Of a DNA stretch of 64,000 bases, positions 318-20,260 are shown in pieces (position 1 is the stretch's first letter; the number at the start of each line of letters is the position of its first letter). The notes under the pieces were generated by a model that saw nothing but the letters and a program-made list of their open reading frames with translations, was not told the origin of the DNA and ran no database searches. Position numbers and translations under genes: made by a program. Origin of the DNA: Nitrospina sp. (lineage in GTDB: Bacteria; Nitrospinota; Nitrospinia; Nitrospinales; JACRGP01); contig JACAVV010000010.1 of the NCBI GenBank assembly GCA_024648695.1, positions 62,001 through 126,000 on the forward strand, written 5' to 3'.

Positions 318-1226
318 TTAAGCCGCTTCTCCATGGAATCTTTTACGATATTCTTTTATAAGCGGCTGGGCCGATTTTGGAATAAACTCGGTGAAAAGTT
401 CATCCTGTTTTTCATTCAAATAGAAATCATAGGGATCAATGCCGTTTATGGAACCTAGATTAGGTTCATGTACAAAATACCCCAGAAGCCTTAGCAAGTT
501 TTCCGGCATATCTCTTAATTCTTCCTTGCTATACGCCAAATAACTGTTCTCGGCCTGCCTAAGCCAGCCCAGGCAATAACTGATTACGGCCCCACAGCGT
601 CTTTCATTAGTTTTATTGGCCCCGCCGCAATGAAAAAGAGAACCCAGGTAAATCAATACGGAGCCTTTATTCATAACGCCCTGTGTCACCATATGAGGCG
701 GTAAGTCTTCGCATTCCAGGTTGAGAGATTGACTCCGAGGCCACTTGTGGCTCCCCGGTACAACCACCGTAGCCCCGTTTTCTTTTGTGAAGTCATTTAT
801 TGCCCACATGCAATTTATCATGGCTTCATAACCGGGATGCAAGAAGGGAAACATCGGGTCGTCCTGATGCATGATTTGTTTCTTTTCCTGCGGTCCGATA
901 GATATGGCCTGTGTGAGATTAATCTGGTACTGGGAGCAGGCTTTCAATAGAAAATGATCCATCACTTCTAGGATATTTGGAATAATCGCCATTTTTTGAA
1001 AAACTTTGGATTTTGTGAACAGAGTTCCTAATCGCTTCGTTTCGTACCCGTAAAAATCCCCTTGGCAATCGGGTATGGCGTCTAAATGCGGCCCGATATC
1101 ATCTTGAAGCCGTTTGAGTTCCACGTCAGATAAAGCATTTTCCAATACCACACATCCGTCCTGTTCCAAAATCTCAATTATGGTTGCAGAGTTTTCATTT
1201 GAGGGTACTTTTCTTACCTCAGCCAT
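318..1226 (-). CDS. Phytanoyl-CoA dioxygenase (PhyH)-like Fe(II)/2-oxoglutarate dioxygenase
   Basis: HQD motif (MHQDDPMFPFLHPGYEAMINCMWAINDFTKENGATVVVPGSHKW) and distal H (SLFHCGGANKT); start set to MAEVRKV, preceded by GGAG, rather than the longer ORF start. Confidence 0.85.
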   Translation of the reverse strand: MAEVRKVPSNENSATIIEILEQDGCVVLENALSDVELKRLQDDIGPHLDAIPDCQGDFYGYETKRLGTLFTKSKVFQKMAIIPNILEVMDHFLLKACSQYQINLTQAISIGPQEKKQIMHQDDPMFPFLHPGYEAMINCMWAINDFTKENGATVVVPGSHKWPRSQSLNLECEDLPPHMVTQGVMNKGSVLIYLGSLFHCGGANKTNERRCGAVISYCLGWLRQAENSYLAYSKEELRDMPENLLRLLGYFVHEPNLGSINGIDPYDFYLNEKQDELFTEFIPKSAQPLIKEYRKRFHGEAA

Positions 1227-1483
1227 TTGGTGCTCTCCTCCGTTTTTCCATTGTCCAACGCGTTTAAACTTTCCAGAGCCTTTTCCAGAAAATAGGTCGT
1301 GTATTCCCAATGATGATCGGCGCTAAATATAATCAAGGCTTTCAAGTGTCCGTTCATAGCGATGGCTTTTTGCTCCGAACGGTTCAGGTCGGTTAGCATA
1401 TCTTGAAAACACCCTTCAACCCCCCGGTCCGGGAAAGGGATAACATCGCAGTTGTGGAGGTCATTATCCTCAGGCATATGCAA
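1214..1483 (-). CDS. Hypothetical 89 aa protein between luxI and the dioxygenase gene
   Basis: Overlaps the 3' end of luxI and the 5' end of the dioxygenase gene, as expected for translational coupling. Confidence 0.6.
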   Translation of the reverse strand: MHMPEDNDLHNCDVIPFPDRGVEGCFQDMLTDLNRSEQKAIAMNGHLKALIIFSADHHWEYTTYFLEKALESLNALDNGKTEESTKWLR

Positions 1484-2156
1484 CCGCCTTTCCTTGAGGA
1501 ATTGTAGTCCCGCCCACTCTGTTAAACAGAATCGGAGGCAAATCCTTTTCAGTAATTCCGCAGGTGACTCCAGTTATATCCTGTATCCGGTTCAGGGATT
1601 GGTGATCCATTGGAAACCGAACCGCAAGACCGGGTTTGCCATCAACCAAGACCTCATCGGATTCACGATCCGGTATAAATCCCACTCTCTTGATAGAACG
1701 TCCCACCGGCTTGTGATACATAGTGTAAGTGAATGGAATGCGAGCCAAAAGGCAGGTTTCGTATAAAGCTGTGATAAGTTGAGCCGTTATTCGATTTACA
1801 TTTTTGATGCTAGTTTTGTTTTCCTCTTCGTAACTGTAAACCCCGAACCGGCTGAGTTCCCATATATCGGGACTGGCCGGAAGGGGAAAATTTTTTAGAA
1901 AATCGGGCCAAACATCACGAATCATGGAAGGACCATCCGTAGGAGTTAACCGCCAAACACCTGCAATTCGATCTTTATCATCCCGAACTAATATGTAAAC
2001 TGCTTCCGGCACATCGAACTGGTCTATCTCAAGACCGTCTTTGCTTATCTCAACATCCCAACGCATGCGATCTTTGAAGATAAGCTTTCGAACGCGATGC
2101 ATTTCCTGCAAAGCTCCGATTTTTCCTGATTGCCCCGCTTGAATAATCTCGATCAT
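1470..2156 (-). CDS. luxI: LuxI-family acyl-homoserine-lactone synthase
   Basis: LuxI invariant positions visible: RKLIFKDRMRWDV (R,F,W), DQFDVPEAVYILV (D,D), GVWRL (R), WELSRFGV (E,R); start at MIEIIQAG. Confidence 0.92.
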   Translation of the reverse strand: MIEIIQAGQSGKIGALQEMHRVRKLIFKDRMRWDVEISKDGLEIDQFDVPEAVYILVRDDKDRIAGVWRLTPTDGPSMIRDVWPDFLKNFPLPASPDIWELSRFGVYSYEEENKTSIKNVNRITAQLITALYETCLLARIPFTYTMYHKPVGRSIKRVGFIPDRESDEVLVDGKPGLAVRFPMDHQSLNRIQDITGVTCGITEKDLPPILFNRVGGTTIPQGKAVAYA

Positions 2157-2211
2157 GATACCCCATCCGTTTAAGGAAAAGGGCATTGTGAAGAATTAAG
2201 GGATGGTTTTT

Positions 2212-2231
2212 TATTCCACTATCGTGGAATA
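2212..2231. promoter_or_regulatory. lux-box-like 20 bp inverted repeat TATTCCAC-TATC-GTGGAATA
   Basis: Perfect 8 bp arms with 4 bp centre, 55 bp upstream of the luxI ATG, in the luxR-luxI intergenic region. Confidence 0.75.
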
Positions 2232-2327
2232 TTATTGTTGATAGAGTATGTTCTAATGAAAAGTTTTGTATGAATTGAATCCGCAGGGGAATTTTTGCCT
2301 TTGAACGACAATCTCAATTAAATATAG

Positions 2328-3071
2328 CTAAGGAAGAATTAAGCCATACACAATCCCTTTAGATATGGCATGGCGGCTGTTGGAAACGCCCAGCCGAACA
2401 AATATATTGTTCATATGTTTTTTTACCGTATCTTCCTGAATACTCAAAATAGTGCTTATTTCCCAATAAGTCTTGCCTCGAGCAACCCATTTTAATATTT
2501 CCGTCTCACGGGACGAGAGTCGAAATTGTTTTTCAACTTCGCTCATTCCCAGGGAAGCTATTTTTTCATGTGCATAAGCCGCCAAAAGATGGAGCTCATG
2601 GCGATGATAATTGAATAAATCATCAAACTCTTTTTCGCTGATATTGCTGGCAACAGATAACGTCGCTTTCATTGAATGGGGGCCGTGGATGGGAATGCTT
2701 CCACCGGATCGCAAACCTACAGAGGAACTGTCATCAAATAGTACCTTTTGCATGCGCGTGATGGTAAGTTCTTTGCTAATATCAGACCACTTGAAGGGTG
2801 TGTTTTTCTCATTGGAGAACCTGCCTACCATATCGTGACATTGAAAATCATTGGCCACATAATGGTCCAGGAACTTTTGCGGATAAGTCGACAGAATAAT
2901 AGGTTCTTTAGCTTCCTGCTTATGCCACCGGAGCCAATAGGCCATTTTTTCAAAACCAAGCCTTTTGACCTGTTTTTGTAAAACCCGGATAATATGATCA
3001 ATGTCCTCCGCATCCCCAAGAGCGGAAATATAGCGATCCAATTCTTCAAATGACATCCTGTCCTTGGGCAT
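2328..3071 (-). CDS. luxR: LuxR-family autoinducer-binding transcriptional regulator
   Basis: C-terminal LuxR HTH (LSSRETEILKWVARGKTYWEISTILSIQEDTVKKHMNNIFVRLGVSNSRHAI) and an N-terminal autoinducer-binding-like region; start is either MPKDRM (3071) or MSFEEL (3056, better Shine-Dalgarno). Confidence 0.9.
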   Translation of the reverse strand: MPKDRMSFEELDRYISALGDAEDIDHIIRVLQKQVKRLGFEKMAYWLRWHKQEAKEPIILSTYPQKFLDHYVANDFQCHDMVGRFSNEKNTPFKWSDISKELTITRMQKVLFDDSSSVGLRSGGSIPIHGPHSMKATLSVASNISEKEFDDLFNYHRHELHLLAAYAHEKIASLGMSEVEKQFRLSSRETEILKWVARGKTYWEISTILSIQEDTVKKHMNNIFVRLGVSNSRHAISKGIVYGLILP

Positions 3072-3210: not shown

Positions 3211-4503
3211 ATGGCCAAAACCAAGAAAACTCAAAATTGTACCAACTTTTCTCCCAAACAGATCAAACAGCTTAGAAATGGACTTAGAAAATATCGTAAA
3301 AAGCATGATTATTCTTGGATGCAAGTAACTTATGAACTTATTTCTTCAGAATCAAATGACTACTCCCGTCCAATTATCGCCTTAAAAAAGGGCGACAAGG
3401 AAGATAAATACTGGCCAATCAAGGAAAAAATGATTAGCCGGTTTGCGGGCAAAGAAGAGAGAAAAATTCGAGACTACAAAATCTCCCATGCCATTCGAGC
3501 CTTTCTAATTGAAAACGGCATTTGGAAACCCCGCTATGATGATGCAAAAGAGATGCGTTTTAATGAAGCCATAGAACTATCTGAATATTTCCTGAATCCA
3601 GAGAGTACTTATCCATCCTTAATGACCATTGATTTAACAGGTAACTTCGAAATTATTGAGGAAAACATTTGCTCTAATTTTGAAAGGTCTTTGTCATTAG
3701 AGTTATTCGAAGAAGCTCATTTTTATGAAGTTGAGGAACGTTTGACCATTCCCACAGAAGGCAAACCCCGAAAAGTTCACAAACAAGGCTGGGCCAATAT
3801 AACTTCCTTCAATAAGATTTTAGTATTTTTGGAAGATCAGGTTAATAAAAGACAGGAATTATATGTCGGGCAATCCTTAAAATTCTTCAAGGATGGTTCA
3901 ATAGAAATTCAATTGGCTCCCTTAACCTCAATGGCTGTTTCGGATAAGACCGGAAATATCATTCCTCTAAAAAGTTTCAAGGAAAGACGTTCTTCTGAGC
4001 CTATTATCTATTTCAAAGAGTTTGTAGAGGAACAGGAAGATTTGACGCTCCGAGGATTGCCAGCTATTGATTGGGCTGAATTTATTGTTGAAGCCGAAGA
4101 AGACAAAGAAATGGCAAAAGAAAATTTACCGGGCCAATATTTGATGGGATGCGTCAAGGGCGACCTTGAAGCCGTCCGGGAGGCAGTAAAAAAGGGCGTC
4201 AAAATAAATTGTCGCACGAAGGGGACCAACGAACATGCTCTACATATTGCCGCCGGTGAACGTCATCGTCATGTGGTGCAATATCTGGCTACTCTTAAAG
4301 GTATAAATTTTCTAGCAAAAGACTATGAAGGCGAACTTCCCTCAACCGTTGCTACGGTACGTGGAGACGATCCCGAATTGGGAGATTTTCTGACTGACCT
4401 TGAAATGCAACAAGCGCAAAGTCAAAACAGAGATTACTTTGATGTCTTTATGAACCGGGAAAAACCCAATTCTGAAGACCCTGAACTCTCAATCGTAAAA
4501 TGA
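3211..4503 (+). CDS. Hypothetical protein with C-terminal ankyrin-like repeats
   Basis: LMGCVKGDLEAVREAVKKGVKINCRTKGTNEHALHIAAGERHRHVVQYLATLKGINFLAKDYEGELPSTVA; N-terminal ~270 aa without a recognised domain; ATGA overlap with the next gene. Confidence 0.7.
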   Translation: MAKTKKTQNCTNFSPKQIKQLRNGLRKYRKKHDYSWMQVTYELISSESNDYSRPIIALKKGDKEDKYWPIKEKMISRFAGKEERKIRDYKISHAIRAFLIENGIWKPRYDDAKEMRFNEAIELSEYFLNPESTYPSLMTIDLTGNFEIIEENICSNFERSLSLELFEEAHFYEVEERLTIPTEGKPRKVHKQGWANITSFNKILVFLEDQVNKRQELYVGQSLKFFKDGSIEIQLAPLTSMAVSDKTGNIIPLKSFKERRSSEPIIYFKEFVEEQEDLTLRGLPAIDWAEFIVEAEEDKEMAKENLPGQYLMGCVKGDLEAVREAVKKGVKINCRTKGTNEHALHIAAGERHRHVVQYLATLKGINFLAKDYEGELPSTVATVRGDDPELGDFLTDLEMQQAQSQNRDYFDVFMNREKPNSEDPELSIVK

Positions 4504-7352
4504 ACGAGGTAACATTTCTCCATACACACTTAAACCAACTGTGCGTGGAGCGAAGATTTGAGGAAGCGGCCAGTCTGGCATTATACCTCACCAGCCTTTT
4601 TGAAAACGGCGATCACAGTCAATTCACTTACATCTATAAATACACCGATTATTTAGCAGAGATTTTAAGGCACTGGGGAAAGTATCGCTCGTCTTTAGCC
4701 ATTAACCATCAAATGTTATGGGTATGTAACCAAACCTTATCCTCCTATTCCCTTCCAACGGCATCGGCCTTTCAAAAAATTGGAAACATTCACCTGACAA
4801 CTGGAAATTATTCACGGGCTTGCCATGCCTTTAAACGCAGTATAGCCATCAAAAGAAAACTTTTAAAAAAGGATCATCCTGAATTCGCCGTTCCTTTAAA
4901 TAATCTTGCCGAGGTTTATCGAAGAACAGGTCTTCTTGAAAAGTCTCTCCACTTGCATAAGGAATCCATGAGGATTCGTATTCATAGTTTTGGGAAAGAA
5001 CATGCAGAAACCGGGGCGTCTCTTAATAATTTTGCGGCCACTTATCAGGCTATGGGGAAATTCAAAAAGGCTGTTTCTGCTTATAAGAAATCCCTTGAAA
5101 TCAGAAGGAAACATTTGGGGGAAGCTCATCCGGACGTAGCACAATCCTTTAATAATCTGGCCAGTGTTTATCATTTTATGGGTGTTTATGATACGGCTTT
5201 ACCGCTTTATCAAAGCGCTTTGATCGTATTGACAAATTGTCATCAATTTCCCCAAGCGTTAATGGCATCTGTCCTGAACAATATAGGCAGTTTGTATCAA
5301 GCAAAAGAGAAATGGGATGAAGCGGAACAGCATTATTTGAAAGCGTTATCGATCAGAGAAGCTATTTATAAAGATAAGCACCCTGATGTAGCAAACTCTC
5401 TCAATAATATTGGAGGGTTGTTCAAGAAAAAGGGAGAGTATCAGAAAGCAGAGTCCTATTATTTTAAAGCTTTGGATATTCGAAGAAACGTTTTTAAGCA
5501 GAACCATCCCGATATTGGTACTACTTGTAATAATATCGCAGGAATCTATCAAGCCAGAGGACTACCGGATAAAGCTTTGCCCTTTTATAGAGAGGCGCTG
5601 GCAATCACCCAAGCTACTTTAGGAAACGACCATCAAGCCGCAGGTAACATCCTAAACAATATGGCCAGCATCCATCAGGCTCTTGGCGATCCGGATCAAG
5701 CGCTTGGCGCTTCTGAGGAAGCCAATTTTATTCAGGATCAATATATTCATAACATTTTTCATGCCAATGTGGCCGAAAAGCAAAAGCTGGATTGTTTCAG
5801 GTCTTTATCACTTTATCTGGACGCATATCTTTCTCTTGTTATCAGGAATTTCAAAAAAGACCCAGCCGCTTTAAAAAATGCTTTCGAATTGGTATTAAAT
5901 CGTAAAGGTTTGATTCTGGATATTCACTCCAAAGCTGGAAAAGCAATCCGATCAAAGCTAACCCCAAAAATCCGCAAAATTTGGGATGAACGTCTTGAGG
6001 CTTTAAGCCAACTTTCTGCCTTGTTAATCGGCTCACCGTCAGATTTCGGAATGAACTCTATAATGTACCAAACACGAAAGTCAGCCCTTCAGGGCCGATT
6101 GGTGGAACTGGAGGAAAGGCTGATTAAAACTGGCATTGTAGGTTATAAGGATTTAAGGCCCAACAAAGTAACTTTAGAAAACCTTTCTAATAATCTCAAT
6201 CCTGGCTCCCTACTTTTAGAGTTTATCAAAATCCGAGACTATGATTTTAAAGGTTCCTGGTTAAACCCGGAATCCCGATATTTGGTTTTCTCACTAAATT
6301 CTAAGGGAGACTTGAATCTCATTGATTTGGGATCGGCTGAGGCCATGGAACAACTCACATCAAAAGCCCTTACCTCCATTCAAAGGGAAAGAAATTCCAA
6401 AGAATCTACAAGTAAACGGTCTCTGGCTAAAGGTTCATTTCAAGCACTTTTCAAACTATATGAAAAGATATGGAAGCCTGTTGAAGAAAAAGTAAAAGAT
6501 GTAGATCAAATTTTTATCAGCCCGGACGGTGCATTGAACCTCTTACCCTTTCCGGCTCTTTTTGACGACAAGGGAATTCCTTTGATTGAAAGGTCTGCGA
6601 TAAGCTATTTAAGCTTTGGCAGAGAACTTGCCGCTTCCCCTGAAAAAGAAAACTCTACCGATACCGACTTGACAATAATCGCAAACCCCGATTTTGGAAA
6701 ATTCCTGGATCAAGAAAAAGACTTTAGACCATTGCAGGGAACCAAAAAGGAAAGCACTGATATTCAAAACATTCTTTCATCCAAGTACCCAAAACAAACG
6801 GTTTGGGAAGAAAAAGATGCCACCAAGTCTAACTTTATCCACGCGAAGGCTTCGAAAATCATTCACATTGCCACCCATGGTTTCTTTTTAAAAAACCTGC
6901 CCGAAAATGATCCTTTCGAAAACCCATTATCCCGGTCCGGCCTGGTATTTGCTGGTGCAAACGCCCTCTCGTCAAATACCGCCAAAGCCTCTAAATTAAC
7001 TGCATTGGAAATCACCGGGCTGGATTTGTCTCAAACGGATTTAGCTGTCTTATCGGCCTGTTCTACAGGGTTCGGTAGTTTTCAAAATGGTGAGGGCGTT
7101 ATGGGATTACGCAGGGCTTTCAAGCTGGCCGGTGTAAATACCTTGATGATGAGCTTATGGACCATTTCTGACACGGAAACGCCTACTCTAATCCATTCCT
7201 TTTATAAAAACTATCTAACCTTGATACCAGCCGAAGCACTTCGGCAAGCACAATTGGATACGATTGAATATTTGAAAGACAATTACGGTTATGCTGCAGT
7301 TAGTCTTTGGGCCCCTTTCATTATTCAAGGGGCTAACGCTTTCAGAAAATAA
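4500..7352 (+). CDS. TPR-CHAT protein: tetratricopeptide repeats plus C-terminal caspase-like CHAT protease domain
   Basis: Kinesin-light-chain-type TPRs (e.g. HPDVANSLNNIGGLFKKKGEYQKAESYYFKALDIRR) and CHAT dyad HIATHGFF ... LSACSTGFG. Confidence 0.9.
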   Translation: MNEVTFLHTHLNQLCVERRFEEAASLALYLTSLFENGDHSQFTYIYKYTDYLAEILRHWGKYRSSLAINHQMLWVCNQTLSSYSLPTASAFQKIGNIHLTTGNYSRACHAFKRSIAIKRKLLKKDHPEFAVPLNNLAEVYRRTGLLEKSLHLHKESMRIRIHSFGKEHAETGASLNNFAATYQAMGKFKKAVSAYKKSLEIRRKHLGEAHPDVAQSFNNLASVYHFMGVYDTALPLYQSALIVLTNCHQFPQALMASVLNNIGSLYQAKEKWDEAEQHYLKALSIREAIYKDKHPDVANSLNNIGGLFKKKGEYQKAESYYFKALDIRRNVFKQNHPDIGTTCNNIAGIYQARGLPDKALPFYREALAITQATLGNDHQAAGNILNNMASIHQALGDPDQALGASEEANFIQDQYIHNIFHANVAEKQKLDCFRSLSLYLDAYLSLVIRNFKKDPAALKNAFELVLNRKGLILDIHSKAGKAIRSKLTPKIRKIWDERLEALSQLSALLIGSPSDFGMNSIMYQTRKSALQGRLVELEERLIKTGIVGYKDLRPNKVTLENLSNNLNPGSLLLEFIKIRDYDFKGSWLNPESRYLVFSLNSKGDLNLIDLGSAEAMEQLTSKALTSIQRERNSKESTSKRSLAKGSFQALFKLYEKIWKPVEEKVKDVDQIFISPDGALNLLPFPALFDDKGIPLIERSAISYLSFGRELAASPEKENSTDTDLTIIANPDFGKFLDQEKDFRPLQGTKKESTDIQNILSSKYPKQTVWEEKDATKSNFIHAKASKIIHIATHGFFLKNLPENDPFENPLSRSGLVFAGANALSSNTAKASKLTALEITGLDLSQTDLAVLSACSTGFGSFQNGEGVMGLRRAFKLAGVNTLMMSLWTISDTETPTLIHSFYKNYLTLIPAEALRQAQLDTIEYLKDNYGYAAVSLWAPFIIQGANAFRK

Positions 7353-7528
7353 AAGAAATTTCCTTCCTTCCAGCAATTCTGCTTTTTCCTTTTCTAATAA
7401 CTACACGCTCTAGATTCCCTATCAAATAAGGCTTTTCCCTTGCACGTCCCCAAGTGGGGAACGGATGGGGAAGACTTTTCCCACCATACTTTAAAATCGA
7501 AATTGATTTTGAAATTTGTGGAGGCAGC

Positions 7529-8080
7529 ATGTCCATACCTAACCAAACCAGCAGAAGTTATCCTTCATCACTTGAAACAGAAACCCGGATTGCCTTTTGG
7601 GCGGGTTACCGGGATGGTGGCCGGTTGCATAAGGTAGATAAGTTCCTGCCCTATGGCTATGGGATGGCAGGCTTGTATACCATCTACAGGGCAACGCAAC
7701 ACCCCTACCTAGAATATTTCCTGGCGCAAGAAGCAGTTCCCATTATAGCCACCGTAATTGGCATGCGGGGATTTCTGGCATGGTGGTGCTGGCGGACCCT
7801 CACCGCTGTTTTTACTCCTTCCACAGTCATCTTTAGAAACGGCAGATTATCTGTCACGGTTGAAACCAGTGACTCCTTCGGTTTTCTAACCCAACCCAAT
7901 CAGAACAGACACATCAAGAATTCCAGGTACTTCAGCGGCACCCATTACGTACTCATGGAGCATAAAGGCCACGGATTGATTTTACTGGCTAACGTCTTTG
8001 GCGAATTACGAGCCCGGCAGATTGTGAGCAAACTGCAAGGCCTCAAAGCGCAGATGAAATCGCTCAAGCGCAAAGAATGA
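7529..8080 (+). CDS. Hypothetical protein, probably membrane associated
   Basis: ATG at 7529 preceded by GGAGG; hydrophobic stretch IIATVIGMRGFLAWWCW. Confidence 0.6.
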   Translation: MSIPNQTSRSYPSSLETETRIAFWAGYRDGGRLHKVDKFLPYGYGMAGLYTIYRATQHPYLEYFLAQEAVPIIATVIGMRGFLAWWCWRTLTAVFTPSTVIFRNGRLSVTVETSDSFGFLTQPNQNRHIKNSRYFSGTHYVLMEHKGHGLILLANVFGELRARQIVSKLQGLKAQMKSLKRKE

Positions 8081-8102
8081 TAACCCCTAACGTACAGGAG
8101 AA

Positions 8103-8804
8103 ATGCCTATGTCGGAATACATAGATGATTTTTATAAGGATTTTGATGAATCGGGGAACGGTGAGCGTGACCGTCCTGATCCCGGACAGGATAAGCCGGA
8201 AGGGAAAAACTCAGGCAACAATTCCAACAAGGGAAAAAATAAATGCAAATTCAAAATAACTCCTTTGTCGGTTGTGATGGCCTTTTGTATGGCCATCCTT
8301 TTCACTGCCCCATTCCTGGGCCATTACATGGTTTACCAACCCGTATTTCAATGGGGAAAGGATGTTTATCTCTCGGAACTGGGACTCATAGCCTGGTTTT
8401 TTAGTTTCTCTGGGCTGGAATCTATGGCTGTCAGTGACGGCGTGACCGGCATCTTAAGTTTCATGAGCGTTTTGCTCAGTGAGATGTTTTTCCATTTCCT
8501 GATGATCGAAGGCTATTTGGAGCATCGGGAATATTTCTGGAGCAATCCTACCCGCAAGCTGGAAACCTTCATGACCTTTGGGCTATATATCTGCACGCTC
8601 GTTATCGAAGGCTGGGCCATGTATTTGCGTATGGGCATGAACGCCATGATCCAGGCAGACCCCAGCAATCCTCTTTTCGATTTCAAAGTTCATGGCTACG
8701 GAGAGCTTTTTGGTTTCTCCGCCATGATTATTTTTATCAACGCAACGTTCTCTTATTTATCCATCAAGTGTTTCAGAATTTTAAAGAAGGAGATTGAACA
8801 ATGA
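8103..8804 (+). CDS. Multi-pass membrane protein of unknown function
   Basis: Charged N-terminus followed by several hydrophobic helices; overlaps next gene by 4 bp. Confidence 0.65.
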   Translation: MPMSEYIDDFYKDFDESGNGERDRPDPGQDKPEGKNSGNNSNKGKNKCKFKITPLSVVMAFCMAILFTAPFLGHYMVYQPVFQWGKDVYLSELGLIAWFFSFSGLESMAVSDGVTGILSFMSVLLSEMFFHFLMIEGYLEHREYFWSNPTRKLETFMTFGLYICTLVIEGWAMYLRMGMNAMIQADPSNPLFDFKVHGYGELFGFSAMIIFINATFSYLSIKCFRILKKEIEQ

Positions 8805-9526
8805 AAACGATTAACAAGACCTTCCTTGCCATGATGATGGCGAGCTTTTTATTCATTCCCGGCCATGGAATGGCTAAAGACAGACCTAAGGTCGCTGTTC
8901 TCATAGCATTTGACGACAGCGGCTCCTGGCAAGAGTCGAGTAAGGAGGCGGATCAAATGAAAGTAGCGTTCATCAAACAGCTCTTGAATCTGAAAAAGCG
9001 GCGCAAAACCCGCCATGCTCAGATTGATTTTATATCCACTTCCACCGGTGGTTCAGAGCTGACGCTGGAACCAATGCTTTTGGCTGAGAACTGGAATGCC
9101 ATCGAGCCTTTGATTAAAGGAAAACCAAACCGCTGCAATAATTTGGTCAAGGCGTTCCAAACCATTCGTTCTGCCATCCTGGAGTATGACCAGGAGGGAA
9201 TGGAGGAAATCTATATTTACATCTTTAGCAGTTTGATTAATCTTCCAGCCCCTTGCGACAAGAACAACCATTTATTTCTGCCGCAAAAGCCGCCGGTAGT
9301 GGATTTGGATCAAAACGGCACCAATGACCTTCAGGAAATCTTGACCCGATCTTCCAAGGTAAAAACCGTTCTCATTTATGGCGTAAAAGGTGAACAGTTC
9401 GATGGGTGGTATGAACTGCTTTTTCCTAAGCAATGGGTTCAAAAGAACCCTGAAAACATTTTCAGGATGAAAATATTCAGCAAAACCAATCTGGCTTTGC
9501 GGGATGGTTTATTCATCAGGAGGTAA
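8801..9526 (+). CDS. Secreted protein, divergent von Willebrand factor A-like
   Basis: Signal peptide (MKTINKTFLAMMMASFLFIPGHGMA) and MIDAS-like DDSGSW. Confidence 0.55.
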   Translation: MKTINKTFLAMMMASFLFIPGHGMAKDRPKVAVLIAFDDSGSWQESSKEADQMKVAFIKQLLNLKKRRKTRHAQIDFISTSTGGSELTLEPMLLAENWNAIEPLIKGKPNRCNNLVKAFQTIRSAILEYDQEGMEEIYIYIFSSLINLPAPCDKNNHLFLPQKPPVVDLDQNGTNDLQEILTRSSKVKTVLIYGVKGEQFDGWYELLFPKQWVQKNPENIFRMKIFSKTNLALRDGLFIRR

Positions 9527-9529
9527 CTC

Positions 9530-10642
9530 ATGAAAAATACAGGTACCGTTATTTCAACCCTGGTTTTATTAACCCTGTTTAGTAGTAATGGTCATGGATT
9601 TCCCCAAATCCATGACCGTTTCGACCAGATTGATACTTTGCCCAAAACCTTTCACTTAATCGATGGAATCCAGGGCAATGACACTCTGCCGCAGGACTTA
9701 AAGTTTCATCTGAAACCTGCTGGCTCCCAACTTGAAGATTGGGAGTTATTGTTAAGGGCGAAAGTCAATGAAGCGGGACTCACTTTGGAGGATGGCAGAC
9801 CGATCACCACCTTCGATGTATTCAAAACCGATCAGGAAGGCAAAGAAGGCGTGATCGTAGGATCAGTCAATCCTGTGGAATCCATTGATATCTCCCTGGT
9901 GGCCGATGTTGGTAAGGATTCCGAAATCCAGGTCATGTTCAACAATACTGCCGCGCAAGTTATCGAACCCAACCCCAAGGATATTGGGGTGTTCAACTTT
10001 GACCTGGAGCGGCAGACATTCCAGGCAAAGGCAAGCAGTCAATCGAAAATCCAAACTTTGGTTTTCGTTTTAGTTGATGTCTCTGGAAGTATGGTATCCG
10101 CTTTGCCCGGGGTCGCTAAGTCCGGGAGGACATTTCTTCAAAAACTCCCGCAAAAACGCACCCAATGTATGTTGGGCATCTTTAACCACAGATTCCATAA
10201 CCTTGGAAAAAGTTACTGGAATGGAAGCTGTGCAAAGAAATCAAGCCTCCTGAAGGGCATCAGAGCCAATGGTGGAACCAATATCTACTCCGCTCTGTTG
10301 ATCGCCTTTCAGGCTATCAATGCCCGCAAGGATGCCCTTGGGCATGAGGTGAAACCACTTGTTTTGGTTGTGACCGATGGAGCCCAGAACGATACGGTGG
10401 ATATCCCAAAGACCGAGGTCATCAAGGCGATGGAGAAGTCAGATACTACCGTATTCACTTTCTGGCAGGGAACCGGGTTAGATAAAAAGCCATTGGAAGG
10501 CATCACCGCGTTCGAGATGGAAAATGCCAGTGACATCGAAAGAGGTTTGAGTTCCTTCTTCTCGAACGTGAATTTGTACAACGCAGGGCAGATGCACTTG
10601 TTGATCCCCAAAGGGAAATTGCAGGTGGCAACCAAGCCTTAA
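9530..10642 (+). CDS. Secreted VWA-domain protein
   Basis: Signal peptide; MIDAS motif VFVLVDVSGSM with later LVVTDGAQND. Confidence 0.8.
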   Translation: MKNTGTVISTLVLLTLFSSNGHGFPQIHDRFDQIDTLPKTFHLIDGIQGNDTLPQDLKFHLKPAGSQLEDWELLLRAKVNEAGLTLEDGRPITTFDVFKTDQEGKEGVIVGSVNPVESIDISLVADVGKDSEIQVMFNNTAAQVIEPNPKDIGVFNFDLERQTFQAKASSQSKIQTLVFVLVDVSGSMVSALPGVAKSGRTFLQKLPQKRTQCMLGIFNHRFHNLGKSYWNGSCAKKSSLLKGIRANGGTNIYSALLIAFQAINARKDALGHEVKPLVLVVTDGAQNDTVDIPKTEVIKAMEKSDTTVFTFWQGTGLDKKPLEGITAFEMENASDIERGLSSFFSNVNLYNAGQMHLLIPKGKLQVATKP

Positions 10643-10682
10643 CCTTTAACCATTGGAGCGGGGTCTGCCGACCCCGCCTCCC

Positions 10683-10967
10683 TTACTGGGACAGAGGGAG
10701 ACTTCCTGTCAATCGATCCATCGAGTTTTCCGTCATGGTGATCGCGTCATTCAATAAATCGCGTGTGCGGAGCATGAAGGACAGTCCGTCACCCATGCCG
10801 AGATCCAGGGATACGCTCACCATGACCCGGTAAAGCGCCCGGCAGATCGCGGCATTGTCCCTGCCGGAGTCTTGCAACTGACGGACCAGGGCCAGAATTT
10901 CGGCTTCGGATTTCCGGCCCTCTTCGTCAAAGATGAATTTATGTAAAGAGTCAGGAATGGCAGTCAT
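10683..10967 (-). CDS. Hypothetical 94 aa protein
   Basis: ORF in the convergent/divergent gap between plus-strand genes; AGGAGC upstream of its ATG. Confidence 0.45.
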   Translation of the reverse strand: MTAIPDSLHKFIFDEEGRKSEAEILALVRQLQDSGRDNAAICRALYRVMVSVSLDLGMGDGLSFMLRTRDLLNDAITMTENSMDRLTGSLPLSQ

Positions 10968-11045
10968 GGTTCAGCTCCTTATCAATGGGGTGCAAGCCAT
11001 CATGACAGAAGTTTTTCAAACCTGTCAAATTTGCGGGAGGACACC

Positions 11046-11546
11046 GTGGGTTGGGAAGAAAAAAGTTCCAAACAGAATTTCAACAAGGCATCAGAGAAAC
11101 AGGTTCAAGAGCGTTGGTTTTTATACACGCAACTTTCCAAAGAACGCCGCGCTGAATTTGACACATTAGAGAAGAAGTTTATTCAGGACCTTCAGCAAAA
11201 ACTCCATGAACAGGGTTTAAACAAGGACAACGATGTCAAACAGGAACGGGAAACGCTCATTGAAAAGGCCATACGGGACAAACACTACCGACCGGAATGG
11301 GCCAGAGGTTCCCTGATCGACGAGGACCATTATCAAAAATTAGCGGAGCATAACGTGATCGTGTCCAATCGCGAGGAAATCAAACGCATGCAAGACCAAC
11401 ACATACAAAGCCTGGAGACCGTCCTGGCCAAAGAAGGCCTCTATACGAATAAAGGTGACTCTTTATTATGGTTTCAGAAACATTTTAACGAACGTGGATT
11501 GAGCCATAACCATGACCAGGACCAAAACAAAGGAAGAGGAAGGTAA
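11046..11546 (+). CDS. Hypothetical hydrophilic protein upstream of the coupling protein
   Basis: GTG start at 11046 preceded by GGGAGG; same direction as the coupling protein gene. Confidence 0.55.
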   Translation: MGWEEKSSKQNFNKASEKQVQERWFLYTQLSKERRAEFDTLEKKFIQDLQQKLHEQGLNKDNDVKQERETLIEKAIRDKHYRPEWARGSLIDEDHYQKLAEHNVIVSNREEIKRMQDQHIQSLETVLAKEGLYTNKGDSLLWFQKHFNERGLSHNHDQDQNKGRGR

Positions 11547-11551
11547 AACCT

Positions 11552-13045
11552 ATGGACATTTTTTACGGACTACCGCGCGGCGTTAGGGGACGAGAAGGAA
11601 AGATTCCGAGGGAATACTGGGCCGATCCTGAGTTGTTGAAAAGGCATTTCTACTATAACCGAACACAAATCTCTCCCGGAGCTTTTGGTAGCCATTTATT
11701 GGGGCTCAATACCGAACAGGGCCTTGTGACTATTGCTGGAGCGGGATCGGGGAAAAGCGTCATGGTCATTGTCAATGCCAGCAATTATCTGGGAAGCATG
11801 GTGATTGTCGATCCCAAAGGCGACATCGCCGAGAAAACCGCTGAATGGCGGAATGAAGTCATTGGCCAGGATGTTTACATCTTTGCCTTAGGCGTGAAAC
11901 TCAGTAAGAAATTAAAAAAACTCATGGCCAAATGGAACCCTCTGGACAATCTGGGTGGACCAGACACCGTTCTGGAAAATATCGCCAAAGTCTCGGACGG
12001 CCTGATGAAACCCGATCCCAAGGCAGAAGCCCACTGGATTGATTCCGGTAGGACCTTTCTTGAAGGGGTCATTCTCCATGTCATGACATGCAGTTTATAT
12101 GAACGAAGAAGGAACCTGATTAGCGTTCATAGGTTGATCACTACAGGCAGACCCCTGCCGGGAGAAGACACCCCTTCCATGAAGGGATTGATTACCGAAA
12201 TGTTACAAAATGCGGAAATTCTGAAAGACAAGGATGAAGATTTAGGTGAAGCCCTGGAAGGAATGACCTTTGATTTCTGGGACCGTGAAGACCGTGAACG
12301 TAACTCAGTCCTGAGTACAGTCAGAACCCATTTGAAATTTCTCTATTACAAATCGATCCGCAAACTGCTCACCCCTGATCCGACAAAGAAGACTTTAAAG
12401 AACCTGGACATCTTGAAAACGGGGTATTCCACCATTTACGCAAGTATTTCAGTAGGCATGCTTCCTGTCTTCAGTCCATTCTTGCGGGTCCTGGTCAATC
12501 TCACATTAGAAGCCGTTGAGCGCGTCAAAGTAAAACCCAAGGTACCACTGTGTATCGTCCTGGACGAATTTTTTGTCCTCGGGCATTTGAAAGAAATCGA
12601 CAATGCCGCAGGTTTTATCAGAGGCTTCTCAGTAAAATTCCACGTCATTCTCCAGACGTTAAGCCAAATTAAAAGTCTGTACGACAACTGGGAAGTTTTT
12701 ATGGGTAATAACTGCCTCCAGTGCTTTGGGTTGAATGATATGACCACACTGGAATATATCGAAAAACGATGCGGACAAACCCCAGTTAGGGTCATTCAAG
12801 AATCCATCGGCAAAGAGGAGGCCGTTGGAAGCGAAAGCATCAGTGAACAACAATTCCCGCTCATTACGGCGCAAGAAGCATCCCGATTCTTTGCCCGGAT
12901 TGATCCCTTAAAACGCCAACTCCTGATTATGCCGGGATACGAGCCCATCATATTGCAACGCACCGAATGGTATCAAAAGGAAGCACCCTATTTTCAACAA
13001 TACTTTTCCAAATTCTGCCGGTTTCTGGAAACACGAAACAAGTAG
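11552..13045 (+). CDS. TraG/TraD/VirD4-family type IV coupling protein (ATPase)
   Basis: Walker A GAGSGKS followed by VIVDPKGDIAEKTAEWR; Walker B-like CIVLDEFFVLGHL and FHVILQTLSQIKSLYD. Confidence 0.85.
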   Translation: MDIFYGLPRGVRGREGKIPREYWADPELLKRHFYYNRTQISPGAFGSHLLGLNTEQGLVTIAGAGSGKSVMVIVNASNYLGSMVIVDPKGDIAEKTAEWRNEVIGQDVYIFALGVKLSKKLKKLMAKWNPLDNLGGPDTVLENIAKVSDGLMKPDPKAEAHWIDSGRTFLEGVILHVMTCSLYERRRNLISVHRLITTGRPLPGEDTPSMKGLITEMLQNAEILKDKDEDLGEALEGMTFDFWDREDRERNSVLSTVRTHLKFLYYKSIRKLLTPDPTKKTLKNLDILKTGYSTIYASISVGMLPVFSPFLRVLVNLTLEAVERVKVKPKVPLCIVLDEFFVLGHLKEIDNAAGFIRGFSVKFHVILQTLSQIKSLYDNWEVFMGNNCLQCFGLNDMTTLEYIEKRCGQTPVRVIQESIGKEEAVGSESISEQQFPLITAQEASRFFARIDPLKRQLLIMPGYEPIILQRTEWYQKEAPYFQQYFSKFCRFLETRNK

Positions 13046-13872: not shown

Positions 13873-15423
13873 ATGTCAGACCCAACTAAAGCTGTTATCT
13901 ATTGCCGCGTGTCAGGCGGTAAGCAAGTTAAGGAAGGAAACGGCCTGAGTTCTCAAGAGTCACGATGTCGGGAGCATGCCAGGTATCAGGAATGGGAAGT
14001 GATTGGTGTATTTCATGAATCCGCCGTTTCCGGAGGCCTTTTAGACCGTCCTGCCATGAATCGAATGCGGGATTTCCTGGAAAGCCAGAAGTCAAAGATT
14101 TATGTGATTGTAGATGACATCAGTAGATGGGCACGTGAAACCCAATATCATTTTGCGCTCAAGAAGGCCATTCAAGACTCTGGCGGCATCCTTATCTCGC
14201 TAAACCAAAAACTGGAAGATACGCCAGAAGGAAAGTTTATCGAAACAATATATGCCGCTAATGCTGAATTGGAGCGAAGCAGGAATGCGCGGCAGGTGAG
14301 AACCCGTATGCGGGCAAGAGTGATGAACGGTTATTGGTGTTTTGCGCCAGTCCTTGGGTATAAGTACGAGAATGTTTCCGGTCAGGGCAAAGTTTTAGTC
14401 CCTGACGAGCCGGTGGCTTCCATTCTCAAAAAAGCAATGGAAGACTATGCCTCCGGAAAATTGGCCAGCCAAAGTGAGGTGGCGCGTTTTTTGAGTTCAA
14501 AAGCAGGTTTTCCAAAGCCACCGAAAGGACAGGTGCATACTCAGACGGTTCATAAGTTTTTAGGAAAATCCATATACGCAGGCTATATCGATGTTCCAAA
14601 GTGGAATCTCTATTTGCAACCCGGCAAGCATGAGCCCCTAATAAGCTTTGAAACCTTGCAGAAGATAAAAAAACGTATGGACGCCCAGGCTTATATCCCA
14701 GCCCGTAAAGACCTGGATGAAGATTTCCCACTACGCGGGTTTGTATCATGTGGATGTTGTGGTCAACCACTAACCGCTGGATGGACCAAAGGTCGAAACG
14801 GAAGATATCCCTATTATTTATGCTTTACCAAAGGCTGTGAGGATTACAGAAAGTCTGTACGCAAACATATTATCGAAGGTGAATTTGAAGCTCTTCTGCA
14901 AAGCCTCAGGCCCTCACAGGACCTCTTTTTCATGGTTAAGGATATGATTGAGGATATATGGGAAGATCGGGTCCATAATCGCAATAATGAAACCAAATCT
15001 CTGGAAACCGAACTCAAAACAATAGAAAGGAAAGTAGAGCAATTTTTGAACCGCATTGTAGAAACCGACACAAATGCTTTGGTGGCGACTTACGAAAATC
15101 AGGTTCGAAAACTGGAAGAAAAGAAGATAGAAATTACCGAAAAAATCCAAAAATGTGGCCGACCGCTGGACACCTTCGAGGATACATTTCGAACCGCCTT
15201 CAGATTTCTGGCAAACCCTTGTTTTCTTTGGGAATCTGATAGGTTGGAAGACAAAAGAACAGTGTTAAAACTGGTATTTGCAGAGCGTCTGCGCTACTAC
15301 CGAAATGAGGGACTTCGAACCGCCGGAATCTCGCTCCCCTTCTGCTTTATCGAGCAGTTGAAGGGGAGCGATTTGAATATGGTGGAGGCGGGGGGAATTG
15401 AACCCCCGTCCGAAAGTTTTTGA
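13873..15423 (+). CDS. Large serine recombinase / integrase
   Basis: Resolvase N-terminus (AVIYCRVSGGKQVKEGNGLSSQESRCREHA), recombinase domain, zinc beta-ribbon (CGCCGQPLTAGW...YYLCFTKGC), coiled coil; 3' end overlaps ssrA. Confidence 0.93.
   Translation: MSDPTKAVIYCRVSGGKQVKEGNGLSSQESRCREHARYQEWEVIGVFHESAVSGGLLDRPAMNRMRDFLESQKSKIYVIVDDISRWARETQYHFALKKAIQDSGGILISLNQKLEDTPEGKFIETIYAANAELERSRNARQVRTRMRARVMNGYWCFAPVLGYKYENVSGQGKVLVPDEPVASILKKAMEDYASGKLASQSEVARFLSSKAGFPKPPKGQVHTQTVHKFLGKSIYAGYIDVPKWNLYLQPGKHEPLISFETLQKIKKRMDAQAYIPARKDLDEDFPLRGFVSCGCCGQPLTAGWTKGRNGRYPYYLCFTKGCEDYRKSVRKHIIEGEFEALLQSLRPSQDLFFMVKDMIEDIWEDRVHNRNNETKSLETELKTIERKVEQFLNRIVETDTNALVATYENQVRKLEEKKIEITEKIQKCGRPLDTFEDTFRTAFRFLANPCFLWESDRLEDKRTVLKLVFAERLRYYRNEGLRTAGISLPFCFIEQLKGSDLNMVEAGGIEPPSESF
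15332..15370. repeat. Inverted repeat, 11 bp perfect arms (CGCTCCCCTTC / GAAGGGGAGCG) with inner TGCT/AGCA pairing
   Basis: Direct reading; lies inside the integrase 3' end, 9 bp from the tmRNA CCA end. Confidence 0.75.
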
Positions 15424-15737
15424 CTTAAGGCGTCTACATGTTTATCCCATGTTTTGAGTCTCACACCACCGAACTCCCATGGGCAGGGTTTCGATAATGC
15501 CAGCTTCGATTGATCTCACCCAATTCCCTCGAAGCCAAAAAATCGGGCCAGTCCGCTGAAATGACGTTCTATCCTACCCCGCAGACTTAGATAGGCAGAA
15601 CGGTAGCTAACTTAAATTAAGCTGCTACTGCTACTTCATAATCGTTGGCGATTATGTATTATGCCGTTTTTTACGGGCCACGGCTCCCGCACATGCAACC
15701 TTAGTCTCCAGACTCCCGTCGAATCCGGTTCGCCCCC
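15380..15737 (-). ncRNA. ssrA: tmRNA
   Basis: 5' GGGGGCGAACCGGATTCGACGGG; 3' CGGACGGGGGTTCAATTCCCCCCGCCTCCACCA; acceptor GGGGGCG pairs with CGCCTCC; tag ORF ANDYEVAVAA-stop at 15617-15649. Confidence 0.95.
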
Positions 15738-15851
15738 TCTATAATATGTGAAACATTTTTTCCCCTTTATTTAATTGTATCAGGTTTGTTTATATATTGT
15801 CGAGTGGATCTGGTTCGTCTGAACCTGAAAATAATTTGTTGATATAGCGCG

Positions 15852-17114
15852 TTACCCCACCCGGCTCCCAATATCTTTCCGGTAGTGGATACCGTCCCAT
15901 TGGATGGTGGCTACGGCCCGGTAGGCTTTTTCAATGGCGGCGGGGATGTCGTCGCCCAGTGCTGTGACGCCCAGGACACGTCCTCCGTTGGTAAGGGTAT
16001 GGCCGTCTGCGCTTTTGGTTCCGGCATGAAACACGGCGACCCCCTCTTGCTTGTCTGCTTTATCCAATCCTGCAATGATCTTACCTTTGGGATAGTTTCC
16101 CGGATAACCTTCGGCGGCCATCACTACACACACGGCGGCTTGTTCGCTCCATTCCAGTTTAAGACCGTTCAGTGTGCCGTCGGCACAGGCTTCCAACACG
16201 GGAACGATGTCCGATTTCAACCGCATCATCAATGGTTGGGCTTCGGGATCACCAAACCGCGCATTGAACTCCAGGACCTTCGGGCCGTCATGCGTGATCA
16301 TCAATCCGGCGTACAACACTCCTTTATAGGGGCACCCTTCTTTTTCCATTCCGCGGATCGTGGGATACATGATCTCTGAGATCACGCGATCTTTCATGTC
16401 CGGAGTCAACAATGGAGCCGGGGAATAGGTTCCCATACCGCCTGTGTTGGGTCCCTGGTCACCATCGTAAGCGCGTTTGTGATCTTGCGCCGATTCCAGT
16501 GGTAGCAGGGTTTTGCCATCGGTGAATGCGAGAAACGAAACTTCGCGCCCTTCAACCAATTCTTCCACCAGGATCCTTTTTCCGGCATCTCCAAAGGCTT
16601 TTTCTTCCATGATGGTATCGATGGCGCAAAGGGCTTCTTCGGGACTATAGCAAACAAACACCCCTTTACCTGCGGCCAGGCCATCGGCCTTGATCACCAT
16701 TCGGTTACGGGAACGCGCGAACTCTCTGGCGGGTTTGGGATCATCAAATACCTGATACTTGGGAGTGGGAATTCCATAGCGATCCATTAATGTTTTGGAG
16801 AAGGTTTTGCTTCCTTCAATCTGGGCGGCGGCTTTACTGGCCCCAAAAACTTTCAGCCCTTTGGCAGTGAATTGATCTTCAATACCCAAAACCAAAGGTA
16901 GTTCCGGTCCAACCACTGTTAAGCCAATGGAGTGCTCCAAGGCATATTCAAGCAAACGGTCTACCTGGTCGGGGGCAATACCAACATTCACCGCAAGGTT
17001 TGACGTTCCTGCATTTCCAGGAGCGCAGTAAACCTTTTCTACCTTAGGACTTTGAGCAATCTTCCAGGCCAGAGCGTGTTCCCGTCCGCCTCCACCGACT
17101 ACAAGGACGCGCAT
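15852..17114 (-). CDS. purD: Phosphoribosylamine-glycine ligase
   Basis: MRVLVVGGGGREHALAWK, VIKADGLAAGKGV, RFGDPEAQPLM. Confidence 0.95.
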   Translation of the reverse strand: MRVLVVGGGGREHALAWKIAQSPKVEKVYCAPGNAGTSNLAVNVGIAPDQVDRLLEYALEHSIGLTVVGPELPLVLGIEDQFTAKGLKVFGASKAAAQIEGSKTFSKTLMDRYGIPTPKYQVFDDPKPAREFARSRNRMVIKADGLAAGKGVFVCYSPEEALCAIDTIMEEKAFGDAGKRILVEELVEGREVSFLAFTDGKTLLPLESAQDHKRAYDGDQGPNTGGMGTYSPAPLLTPDMKDRVISEIMYPTIRGMEKEGCPYKGVLYAGLMITHDGPKVLEFNARFGDPEAQPLMMRLKSDIVPVLEACADGTLNGLKLEWSEQAAVCVVMAAEGYPGNYPKGKIIAGLDKADKQEGVAVFHAGTKSADGHTLTNGGRVLGVTALGDDIPAAIEKAYRAVATIQWDGIHYRKDIGSRVG

Positions 17115-17311
17115 ACCAATTCCTCCCATACGAAATTAGGGTGTGTCATTCGACATCAAATTTATATAAAATGCTATCAATCGCGTTGCCTGTGTAGCGG
17201 GCGCACAATCGCCACACCATTTAACAAGCAACCGTTTGCCACCGGAGAGGGTCCGTCCAACAACCGGTTTATGTTTTTCGTGATTTTTGTTAAAAGAAAG
17301 GTACCAGAAAA

Positions 17312-18391
17312 ATGGTCCGTTTGGAAACAATTTCCAAATCCTTTGAGGATCAACCAGTGCTTCGCAATGTGTCTCTCGAAATTGAAGAAGGAGAGATCTT
17401 TATTTTGCTGGGCCGGAGCGGGTGCGGCAAAACCACGCTTTTGAGAATCATCGCCGGGTTTGAGGAGCCTGAATTTGGCAGAATTCTGATAAACAATGAA
17501 GATGTGACCTCCGTACCCGTGGAACAAAGACCGGTGGGCATCATATTCCAGAGCCACGCGCTGTTTCCTCACATGACGGTATATGACAATATTGCCCTCG
17601 GTCCACGCGTCCGTGGTGTTCCGGAAATCGAGATTAAACGTCAAATTGACGACCTTCTGCACATGACGCATCTGGAGGCTTTACGCTATGCCTGGCCGGA
17701 ACAAATCAGCGGTGGGGAATCGCAACGTGTCGCGGTGGCGCGTGCCATCATCAACCGACCCAAACTGCTTCTTTTGGACGAACCTTTATCTTCGCTGGAT
17801 CCGTCGTTAAGGCAATCGCTAAGAGAGGAATTGGTGCAGATGCGCAATGCCTTTGGGATCACTTTTCTCTTCGTCACTCACGATCAGGAAGAGGCCATGA
17901 GTCTGGGTGATCGAATCGGATTGCTGGAAGCGGGGAAACTAGCTCAGGTGGGCACTCCCAGTGAATTGTACCATCACCCGGCCACCCCCACGGTGGCGCA
18001 GTTTTTAGGCGAGATCAACCGTTTCTCTGGAGTGTTGGCTTCGCGTGAAAATGGCATTGCAGAAATCAGTGTTCCCGAGGTGGGGAATATTCGATGCCCG
18101 GCATCTGAAACGGTAGCAACCGGAACGCCCGTTTTCACTTTTGTCCGACCCGAAAAAACATATTTCGGATCCAAACCTAACCACGGGGAAGGCAAATGGA
18201 ATAGGCTAACGGGTGTCCTGGAAGGTAAATCGTTTTTTGGTACATACACTCGGTACCAGATTAAAATAGGAAATGGAGAAACCATTCATGTTCTGCGAAC
18301 TTCTGAAAATGAGTTGCATGAGCCCTCCTTTTCTCTTGGCGAATCGGCAAGTGTCTGGTTCGATCCTTCAGAGGTTCATTTATTTGAATAA
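17312..18391 (+). CDS. ABC transporter ATP-binding protein (PotA/FbpC-like)
   Basis: Walker A GRSGCGKTT, signature ISGGESQRVAVARA, Walker B LLLLDEP, C-terminal TOBE-like region. Confidence 0.9.
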   Translation: MVRLETISKSFEDQPVLRNVSLEIEEGEIFILLGRSGCGKTTLLRIIAGFEEPEFGRILINNEDVTSVPVEQRPVGIIFQSHALFPHMTVYDNIALGPRVRGVPEIEIKRQIDDLLHMTHLEALRYAWPEQISGGESQRVAVARAIINRPKLLLLDEPLSSLDPSLRQSLREELVQMRNAFGITFLFVTHDQEEAMSLGDRIGLLEAGKLAQVGTPSELYHHPATPTVAQFLGEINRFSGVLASRENGIAEISVPEVGNIRCPASETVATGTPVFTFVRPEKTYFGSKPNHGEGKWNRLTGVLEGKSFFGTYTRYQIKIGNGETIHVLRTSENELHEPSFSLGESASVWFDPSEVHLFE

Positions 18392-18439
18392 TGTAATAAC
18401 CCCAAATGAGACCCGCAAGATTATCCCATTACTTATCAC

Positions 18440-19264
18440 ATGAATTTTTCAATATCTGTCGTTAATAAAGGTTCGTCCTTATTCCTTATATTTCTTCTTA
18501 CAATTATTCTGGCGTTTACCGGTTGCGATTCGAAAGTTGAAAACGCAAAGAAGAAATATCGTGTCGCTACCGACGCAACGCTCATCCCGATGTCCTTCGT
18601 TAATGAAGAAAACAAGCTGGACGGATTCGAAGTCGACCTCATTAAGGAAATTGCCAGAGTGGCAGGCTTCGATGTGGAACTCATCAATGTGGAATGGGCG
18701 GGATTGTTTGGTGGATTGATCACACAAAAATACGACATGGCGATCAGTTCCGTAACCATCCTGGAAGAAAGAAAAAAGCGCATGGCATTTAGCCGACCTT
18801 ACTTACAAAGTGGGCTTGCACTGGTGGTGCGAAAAGATACTAACGGTGTCTCCAGCATGGAGGATATTCGCAAACAAAATTTGACGGCAGGTGCGCAGGT
18901 TGGAACCACGGCTTATTTTTTCCTGGAATCCTTCCCCGATATCCCAAAGAAAGGGTACCAACTCCACGGTCATGCCGTGGCAGATCTTATCAACGGAGAG
19001 ATTGATGTCGCAGTTGGAGAAAGCTCCGCAACGCTCTATTACAAAAACCAGCAGAAAGATTATTTTCAGAAAATAAAAATGGTCGGGAATATTTTAACCG
19101 AAGAATACTACGGCATCGTGTTCCGCAAGGATGATCCGGAGTTGCTCCAGCAAATAGACTCAACCTTGAACAAACTGCTAGGCAATGGCTTCGTCGACAA
19201 ACTGCATCAAAAGTGGGAACTGGGTCGTGCGGCACAAGTCCCTTCCACAAAAAAGGCCGGTTAA
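18440..19264 (+). CDS. Amino-acid ABC transporter substrate-binding lipoprotein
   Basis: Lipobox-like TGC; YRVATDATLIPMSFVNEENKLDGFEVDLIKEIAR. Confidence 0.88.
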   Translation: MNFSISVVNKGSSLFLIFLLTIILAFTGCDSKVENAKKKYRVATDATLIPMSFVNEENKLDGFEVDLIKEIARVAGFDVELINVEWAGLFGGLITQKYDMAISSVTILEERKKRMAFSRPYLQSGLALVVRKDTNGVSSMEDIRKQNLTAGAQVGTTAYFFLESFPDIPKKGYQLHGHAVADLINGEIDVAVGESSATLYYKNQQKDYFQKIKMVGNILTEEYYGIVFRKDDPELLQQIDSTLNKLLGNGFVDKLHQKWELGRAAQVPSTKKAG

Positions 19265-19265
19265 A

Positions 19266-20096: not shown

Positions 20097-20260
20097 CGCT
20101 ATCCTATTGAAAATTCAATAAAACTTCGATATATTTCCAACTTTCAAAGCACCAGATCGCGGTAGTGGAATAAAACGGGTCGAAGGAATATCATACAATA
20201 AGTATACTTCTATACTACAGGACCCCAATAGATTCGGGCCAAAGGGAAAGGAACCGATTA

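Follow-up and report, generated by a model that had tools for sequence, protein, structure and literature searches.

The window analysed here, a 64,000-nucleotide stretch of a Nitrospina sp. contig, carries a gene for a PhyH-family dioxygenase close to a luxI gene. What does such an enzyme do beside a synthase of acyl-homoserine lactones (AHLs)? Since at least 2013 the arrangement luxR-luxI-phyH has been on record from Novosphingobium and further sphingomonads (PMC3704786, PMC4288048, PMC5012321). Quorum-sensing (QS) control of phyH was proposed in that work, and the bacterial PhyH reaction was called yet to be described (PMC3704786, PMC5012321). New here are a clade, delimited by sequence, in which luxI-tied PhyHs span several phyla, plasmids and a phage contig; a subgroup of this clade with an additional small gene (ORF87); and a locus in Nitrospinota.

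Genes, predicted operon and candidate LuxR site

The four genes of the locus are intact and co-directional (Table 1). LuxI scored above the PF00765 cut-off, retains R23, F27, W33, D45, D48, R69, E100, S102 and R103, and has LasI as its top PDB match (1.6e-20). The adjoining luxR encodes an autoinducer-binding domain (PF03472) and an HTH domain (GerE). The sequence-only reading had described a complete AHL quorum-sensing locus whose LuxI keeps all recognisable catalytic residues; the PF03472, GerE and PF00765 matches bore out the first point, and the residues listed above confirmed the second.

Table 1. Features of the locus and of the associated island in the window
Feature	Position	Strand	Description
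phyH	318..1226	-	PhyH-family Fe(II)/2-oxoglutarate dioxygenase, 302 aa; PF05721 1.5e-30; luxI-linked clade
ORF87	1214..1477	-	Small protein, predicted helical
luxI	1470..2156	-	AHL synthase, 228 aa; PF00765 2.6e-26; catalytic residues kept
lux-box-like dyad TATTCCACTATCGTGGAATA	2212..2231	.	55 nt before luxI
luxR	2328..3071	-	AHL-binding transcriptional regulator, 247 aa; PF03472 3.5e-30, GerE 1.1e-15; D80, W95, G123 kept
Large serine integrase of island	13873..15423	+	PF00239/PF07508; phrog_95 1.1e-72
tmRNA (ssrA)	15380..15737	-	ARAGORN; 3' end abuts integrase gene; presumed insertion site

The same reading had also reported common direction and end-to-end overlaps, which were found, and a small ORF of 89 aa, which was revised. 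luxI and the small ORF overlap by 8 nt (1470-1477) and share ATGCCTGA there, which makes ATG 1477 the most likely start of the ORF and gives it 87 aa rather than the 89 aa read from a TTG. In the closest relative (L015), ATGCCTAA forms the same kind of junction. Another 13 nt (1214-1226) are common to ORF87 and phyH, and a putative phyH ribosome site, GGAGGAGAG, is located within ORF87. Co-transcription is predicted from these overlaps. luxR is separated from luxI by a 171-nt gap that contains the dyad, and the predicted operon is therefore luxI-ORF87-phyH without luxR.

Related loci were found in contigs labelled Alphaproteobacteria PRO23 (L014), Nitrospira HKST-UBA08 (L015), Alphaproteobacteria 8_1_Oct_SF_Bin23 (L016) and Hyphomicrobium (L017, L018, L022). 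Their gene order is like that of the window where the contig allows (L016 is cut before luxI), and each has a small gene in the luxI-phyH gap. PhyH is 62-73% identical to that of the window, and LuxI, where present on the contig, 42-63%. The closest LuxI relative (63%) is that of L015, a MAG labelled Nitrospira sp. HKST-UBA08. Two Nitrospirales genomes of lineage IV are reported to carry Alphaproteobacteria-like AHL synthases on short contigs (PMC12342949); these synthases and the L015 LuxI may reflect one transfer.

The sequence upstream of luxI contains a perfect 20-bp dyad, TATTCCAC-n4-GTGGAATA, the single perfect copy in the whole 4.2 Mb genome. Of five related loci, four (L015, L017, L018, L022) carry a version with two mismatches at a distance of 55-58 nt upstream of luxI, each with a probability of about 0.0005 relative to shuffled upstream sequence; in L014 the dyad at luxI is diverged or lost, and a different dyad is present. 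Position and conservation make the dyad a candidate LuxR site. The search for a wider regulon was based on near-exact motif matching. Genome-wide, dyad matches with ≤3 mismatches were as numerous as in the control, and no second convincing lux box was found, the sole near-match being inside a serB-like gene. This weakly suggests that the circuit may control mainly luxI-ORF87-phyH itself.

ORF87 had no family match in Pfam, NCBIfam or PHROGs, and it was not found on plasmids or in the relatives of the same phylum that were searched. tblastn revealed homologues in L015 and L016. L014 has a 72-aa ORF in the corresponding position that shares a YFLEKA.ES motif with ORF87, and L017, L018 and L022 have ORFs of roughly 100 aa at the same place that are only doubtfully alignable but plausibly homologous. 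In L015, unlike the window, ORF87 reads in frame into PhyH as a single 386-aa ORF; internal initiation at the phyH ATG is a possible alternative to fusion. A joint alignment of the small proteins with the L015 fusion misplaced them within the PhyH domain and was left out. The structural model of ORF87, made from seven sequences, is a two-helix hairpin of moderate confidence. The window belongs to a subgroup of the PhyH clade that carries an extra small gene for a predicted helical protein, and we infer that ORF87 is a partner of PhyH.

A PhyH clade linked to luxI

The window PhyH retains H120-x-D122 and H199, the HxD...H metal triad, and R210, the Arg that binds 2-oxoglutarate. Among 95 PhyH sequences H120, D122 and H199 are kept in all, and R210 in 94. 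Its structural model, predicted from an alignment of the window proteins with sequences of the retrieved loci, had a pLDDT of 91.4 and a pTM of 0.89. An NLTQ signature (residues 103-106), placed by the model on the strand preceding HxD, separates luxI-linked PhyHs and is missing from nearly all solo PhyHs.

The nearest folds and sequences are the natural-product oxygenases AndA, SptF, PrhA, AsqJ and DhiD. These share the fold (TM about 0.7-0.8) and the HxD...H...R active site with the window PhyH, whereas identity is just 22-28% over the fold match. We know of no quorum-sensing context for any of them. Human PHYH, which acts on acyl-CoA, was a weak match (2e-5, versus 4.5e-28 for DhiD). Because PhyH is closest to the natural-product oxygenases and not to the human phytanoyl-CoA hydroxylase, sequence and model favour a free lipophilic small molecule over acyl-CoA as substrate. 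A search of phage records yielded one relative of PhyH, unannotated (33.7% identity, 5e-42), at MT835580.1:21076-21816 in the record of a phage sampled from human faeces.

When genome contigs were scanned with a PhyH alignment, 80 loci were retrieved. The query alignment included luxI-linked sequences and retrieval was enriched for such PhyHs, so the evidence lies in the clean split on the PhyH tree and not in the raw fraction. The tree of 95 sequences contains one supported clade of 60 (98/84), and all 56 PhyHs scored as luxI-adjacent fall inside it, against 0 of the 35 sequences outside. Four clade members were scored as solo: L088 adjoins a luxI fragment, the contig of L016 stops just upstream of ORF87, L023 adjoins luxR, and L025 is the unexplained one. 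The window PhyH and the sphingomonad luxI-linked PhyHs are in this same clade, which agrees with the earlier proposal that the dioxygenase is a dedicated partner of luxI.

The sequences come from alphaproteobacteria, from a single gammaproteobacterium (Povalibacter) and from MAG contigs that bear the labels Nitrospira, Saprospiraceae or Micavibrio; some of the phyla are represented by MAG contigs, under the labels as recorded. luxR-luxI-(ORF87)-phyH also occurs on plasmids and on one phage contig. Conservation of the gene neighbourhood, which the sequence-only reading had proposed as a check, was thus observed in alphaproteobacteria, Nitrospira-labelled MAG contigs, other hosts, plasmids and a phage contig, but not in the other genomes of the phylum that were searched, which have no LuxI. 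On the phage contig (L126:561-6809; IMG/VR UViG_3300026078_000632), luxR-luxI-phyH-marR lies between a CI-like repressor gene and phage portal and terminase genes, and a temperate phage apparently carries the luxI-phyH cassette as cargo. In Phaeobacter, prophage xre-luxR-luxI modules likewise have LuxR/LuxI as mobile-element cargo; unlike the window, they come with no mention of a dioxygenase, phytanoyl or phyH in the paper that describes them (PMC13345283).

Sphingomonad plasmids have luxI and phyH overlapping or close, sometimes with virB/tra genes nearby. The Sphingomonadaceae systems (novR-novI-phyH and the "topology T" luxR-luxR-luxI-phyH-X-virB) share the order, direction, PhyH clade and tight luxI-phyH packing of the window. 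They differ in that PhyH is 32-35% and LuxI 23-27% identical, that the window has ORF87 between luxI and phyH, and that the window locus is on a chromosomal island in another phylum rather than on a plasmid or the chromosome of a sphingomonad.

No families other than PhyH, LuxI and LuxR were broadly shared among the 57 luxI-phyH loci. The next family occurred in 18 of the 57, and almost all of those listed belong to a single part of the tree, mostly Hyphomonadaceae-type contigs; the loci thus hold no recurrent pathway for a separate metabolite. Distance correlation, used as a measure of co-inheritance, was 0.92 for LuxI-PhyH and 0.92 for LuxI-LuxR, both values being raw and including the kinship of the species. 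Gene order varies (luxR-luxI-phyH, phyH-luxR-luxI, luxI-phyH-luxR), and the one PhyH clade is paired with more than one LuxI lineage. On the LuxI tree, whose deep branches are weak, the window LuxI is closer to plasmid LuxIs that lack a PhyH than to sphingomonad LuxIs.

Viewed from LuxI, the pairing with PhyH is found in a minority of cases. In the family to which L018 belongs, 60 genomes gave 22 LuxI-family matches, of which 3 had a clear PhyH neighbour, all three in genomes previously recognised as having luxI-phyH; most luxI genes have no PhyH neighbour. At two further LuxI loci of this family (L135, L144) the neighbouring gene is weakly PhyH-like (28% identity, E 1e-7 to 1e-8), which may point to a second PhyH-LuxI pairing of a more distant kind.

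What the PhyH may act on

The single clade, its tie to luxI and the lack of another widely shared gene narrow the PhyH substrate question to a short list. The likeliest role, judged from sequence, is that of a dedicated enzyme of AHL tailoring (or turnover). The subfamily occurs almost only beside luxI, and PhyH therefore probably alters the signal; the case for an AHL as substrate is made by this linkage and by the absence of another shared gene. In the proposed circuit LuxI, going by its family and residues, would make an AHL, and the LuxR-AHL complex would bind the dyad, as its position and conservation suggest, and switch on luxI-ORF87-phyH. PhyH would be produced by translational coupling with LuxI and ORF87 and, with Fe(II), O2 and 2-oxoglutarate, would oxidise the free AHL, by hydroxylation or in another way, probably at its acyl chain. 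The oxidised AHL would then be the tailored signal for the cognate LuxR, and ORF87, small and predicted to be helical, may act as a partner to PhyH alone or to LuxI and PhyH together. To this reading as a whole, a horizontally acquired, self-inducing cassette whose PhyH tailors the AHL for its own LuxR, we give somewhat less than an even chance.

We count in favour of tailoring the clade of 60 with all 56 luxI-adjacent PhyHs (0 of 35 outside), the LuxI-PhyH correlation as tight as that of LuxI-LuxR (both 0.92), the 57 loci without another widely shared family than PhyH, LuxI and LuxR, and the pairing of one PhyH clade with several LuxI lineages in several gene orders. Proximity to oxygenases that act on free small molecules, the NLTQ signature of the luxI-linked PhyHs and the lack of a second convincing lux box in the genome were counted likewise. 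Against it we count the PhyH-less majority of LuxI genes (3 of 22 with a clear PhyH in 60 genomes) and the grouping of the window LuxI nearer to PhyH-less plasmid LuxIs on weak deep branches. The AHLs made by sphingomonad luxI alone also count against it: C8-, hydroxy-C8- and hydroxy-C10-HSL were among the products of the cloned genes (PMC5012321), so neither AHL hydroxyls nor an active signal require PhyH. The screening in that study relied on comparison with authentic standards, and a new PhyH product could for this reason have escaped notice.

The genomic evidence for tailoring (clade, 57 loci, 0.92 correlation) is identical for signal turnover, in which PhyH induced by LuxR would oxidise the AHL to a less active or inactive form and so limit or sharpen the response by negative feedback. 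That cloned LuxI alone gave active AHLs (PMC5012321) agrees with this. However, signal would be wasted if PhyH were co-produced with the synthase from one overlapping operon, and no AHL-inactivating 2-oxoglutarate enzyme was found in the literature searched; we consider turnover unlikely.

The same result with cloned genes bears on a third role, in which PhyH would alpha-hydroxylate or shorten the acyl-CoA, acyl-ACP or fatty acid used by LuxI, in the manner of the human phytanoyl-CoA hydroxylase. The family name, the acyl-CoA activity of human PHYH and the use of acyl donors by all LuxI enzymes speak for such precursor supply, but luxI expressed without phyH gave ordinary AHLs (PMC5012321), and human PHYH is a far more distant relative of the window PhyH than the natural-product oxygenases are. 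Of the roles weighed, we regard this one as quite improbable.

PhyH could also be a quorum-controlled enzyme for a host metabolite or lipid that leaves the AHL untouched. The PhyH family is catalytically broad, and the sphingomonad papers propose merely QS regulation of phyH (PMC3704786, PMC5012321). Yet the 57 loci come from diverse hosts and plasmids without a further widely conserved gene, the luxR-luxI-phyH trio is also on a phage contig, and co-inheritance of luxI and phyH is as tight as that of luxI and luxR, which makes such an effector role an unlikely one.

Tailoring of the AHL remains the preferred reading. If PhyH modifies AHLs, screens that use only known AHL standards have missed a class of signals. 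A generalisation that we advance tentatively is that the luxI-linked PhyHs are, as a family, general AHL-tailoring enzymes that make an uncatalogued class of oxidised AHLs in several phyla, on conjugative plasmids and in a temperate phage, with ORF87 as a dedicated partner subunit of PhyH in one branch.

Genome context and mobility

LuxI was found in 1 of 77 genomes of the phylum, this genome alone, and neither quorum sensing nor luxI is mentioned in the main text of a comparative paper on Nitrospinota. The locus may be the first AHL system seen in Nitrospinota, which are marine nitrite oxidisers. Two other genomes of the order have a PhyH at E <1e-20; these solo genes (L003, L004) were considered as a source of the window phyH and rejected, as they fall in the other clade of the tree.

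The restriction to one genome of the phylum, a 56-contig draft with an estimated contamination of 2%, could mean that the locus is a contaminant or on a mis-assembled contig, foreign to the organism. However, positions 15869-20100 (purD and neighbours), about 13 kb from the operon on the same 153-kb contig, are syntenic with many relatives of several genera. GC content of the operon (0.42-0.47) matches that of the contig (0.46), and the integrase/tmRNA pair has a counterpart in another genome (G009). Contamination was rejected because native genes syntenic with relatives are on the luxI contig; we consider it extremely improbable, and the contig, by its gene content, as native to the genome.

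Horizontal acquisition of the cassette, on a mobile island, is the best explanation. A large serine integrase gene adjoins the tmRNA gene on the chromosomal contig, and the stretch around the operon also holds a type IV coupling protein, a resolvase and a toxin-antitoxin-like pair. In the search for att repeats no copy of the tmRNA 3' end was found, and the left end of the island was not located. Positions 15010-15738, the integrase C-terminus and tmRNA, recur at G009:C37:50178-50915 with 75% identity; the recurrence of this unit suggests a family of ssrA-targeting islands in the phylum.

Divergent from luxR, the region at 3211-13045 begins with two genes whose ends overlap, one for an ankyrin-repeat protein and one for a TPR-CHAT protein of 950 aa, and continues with uncharacterised proteins, a VWA protein and the type IV coupling protein. 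The quorum-sensing locus thus has a CHAT protease-like gene beside it.
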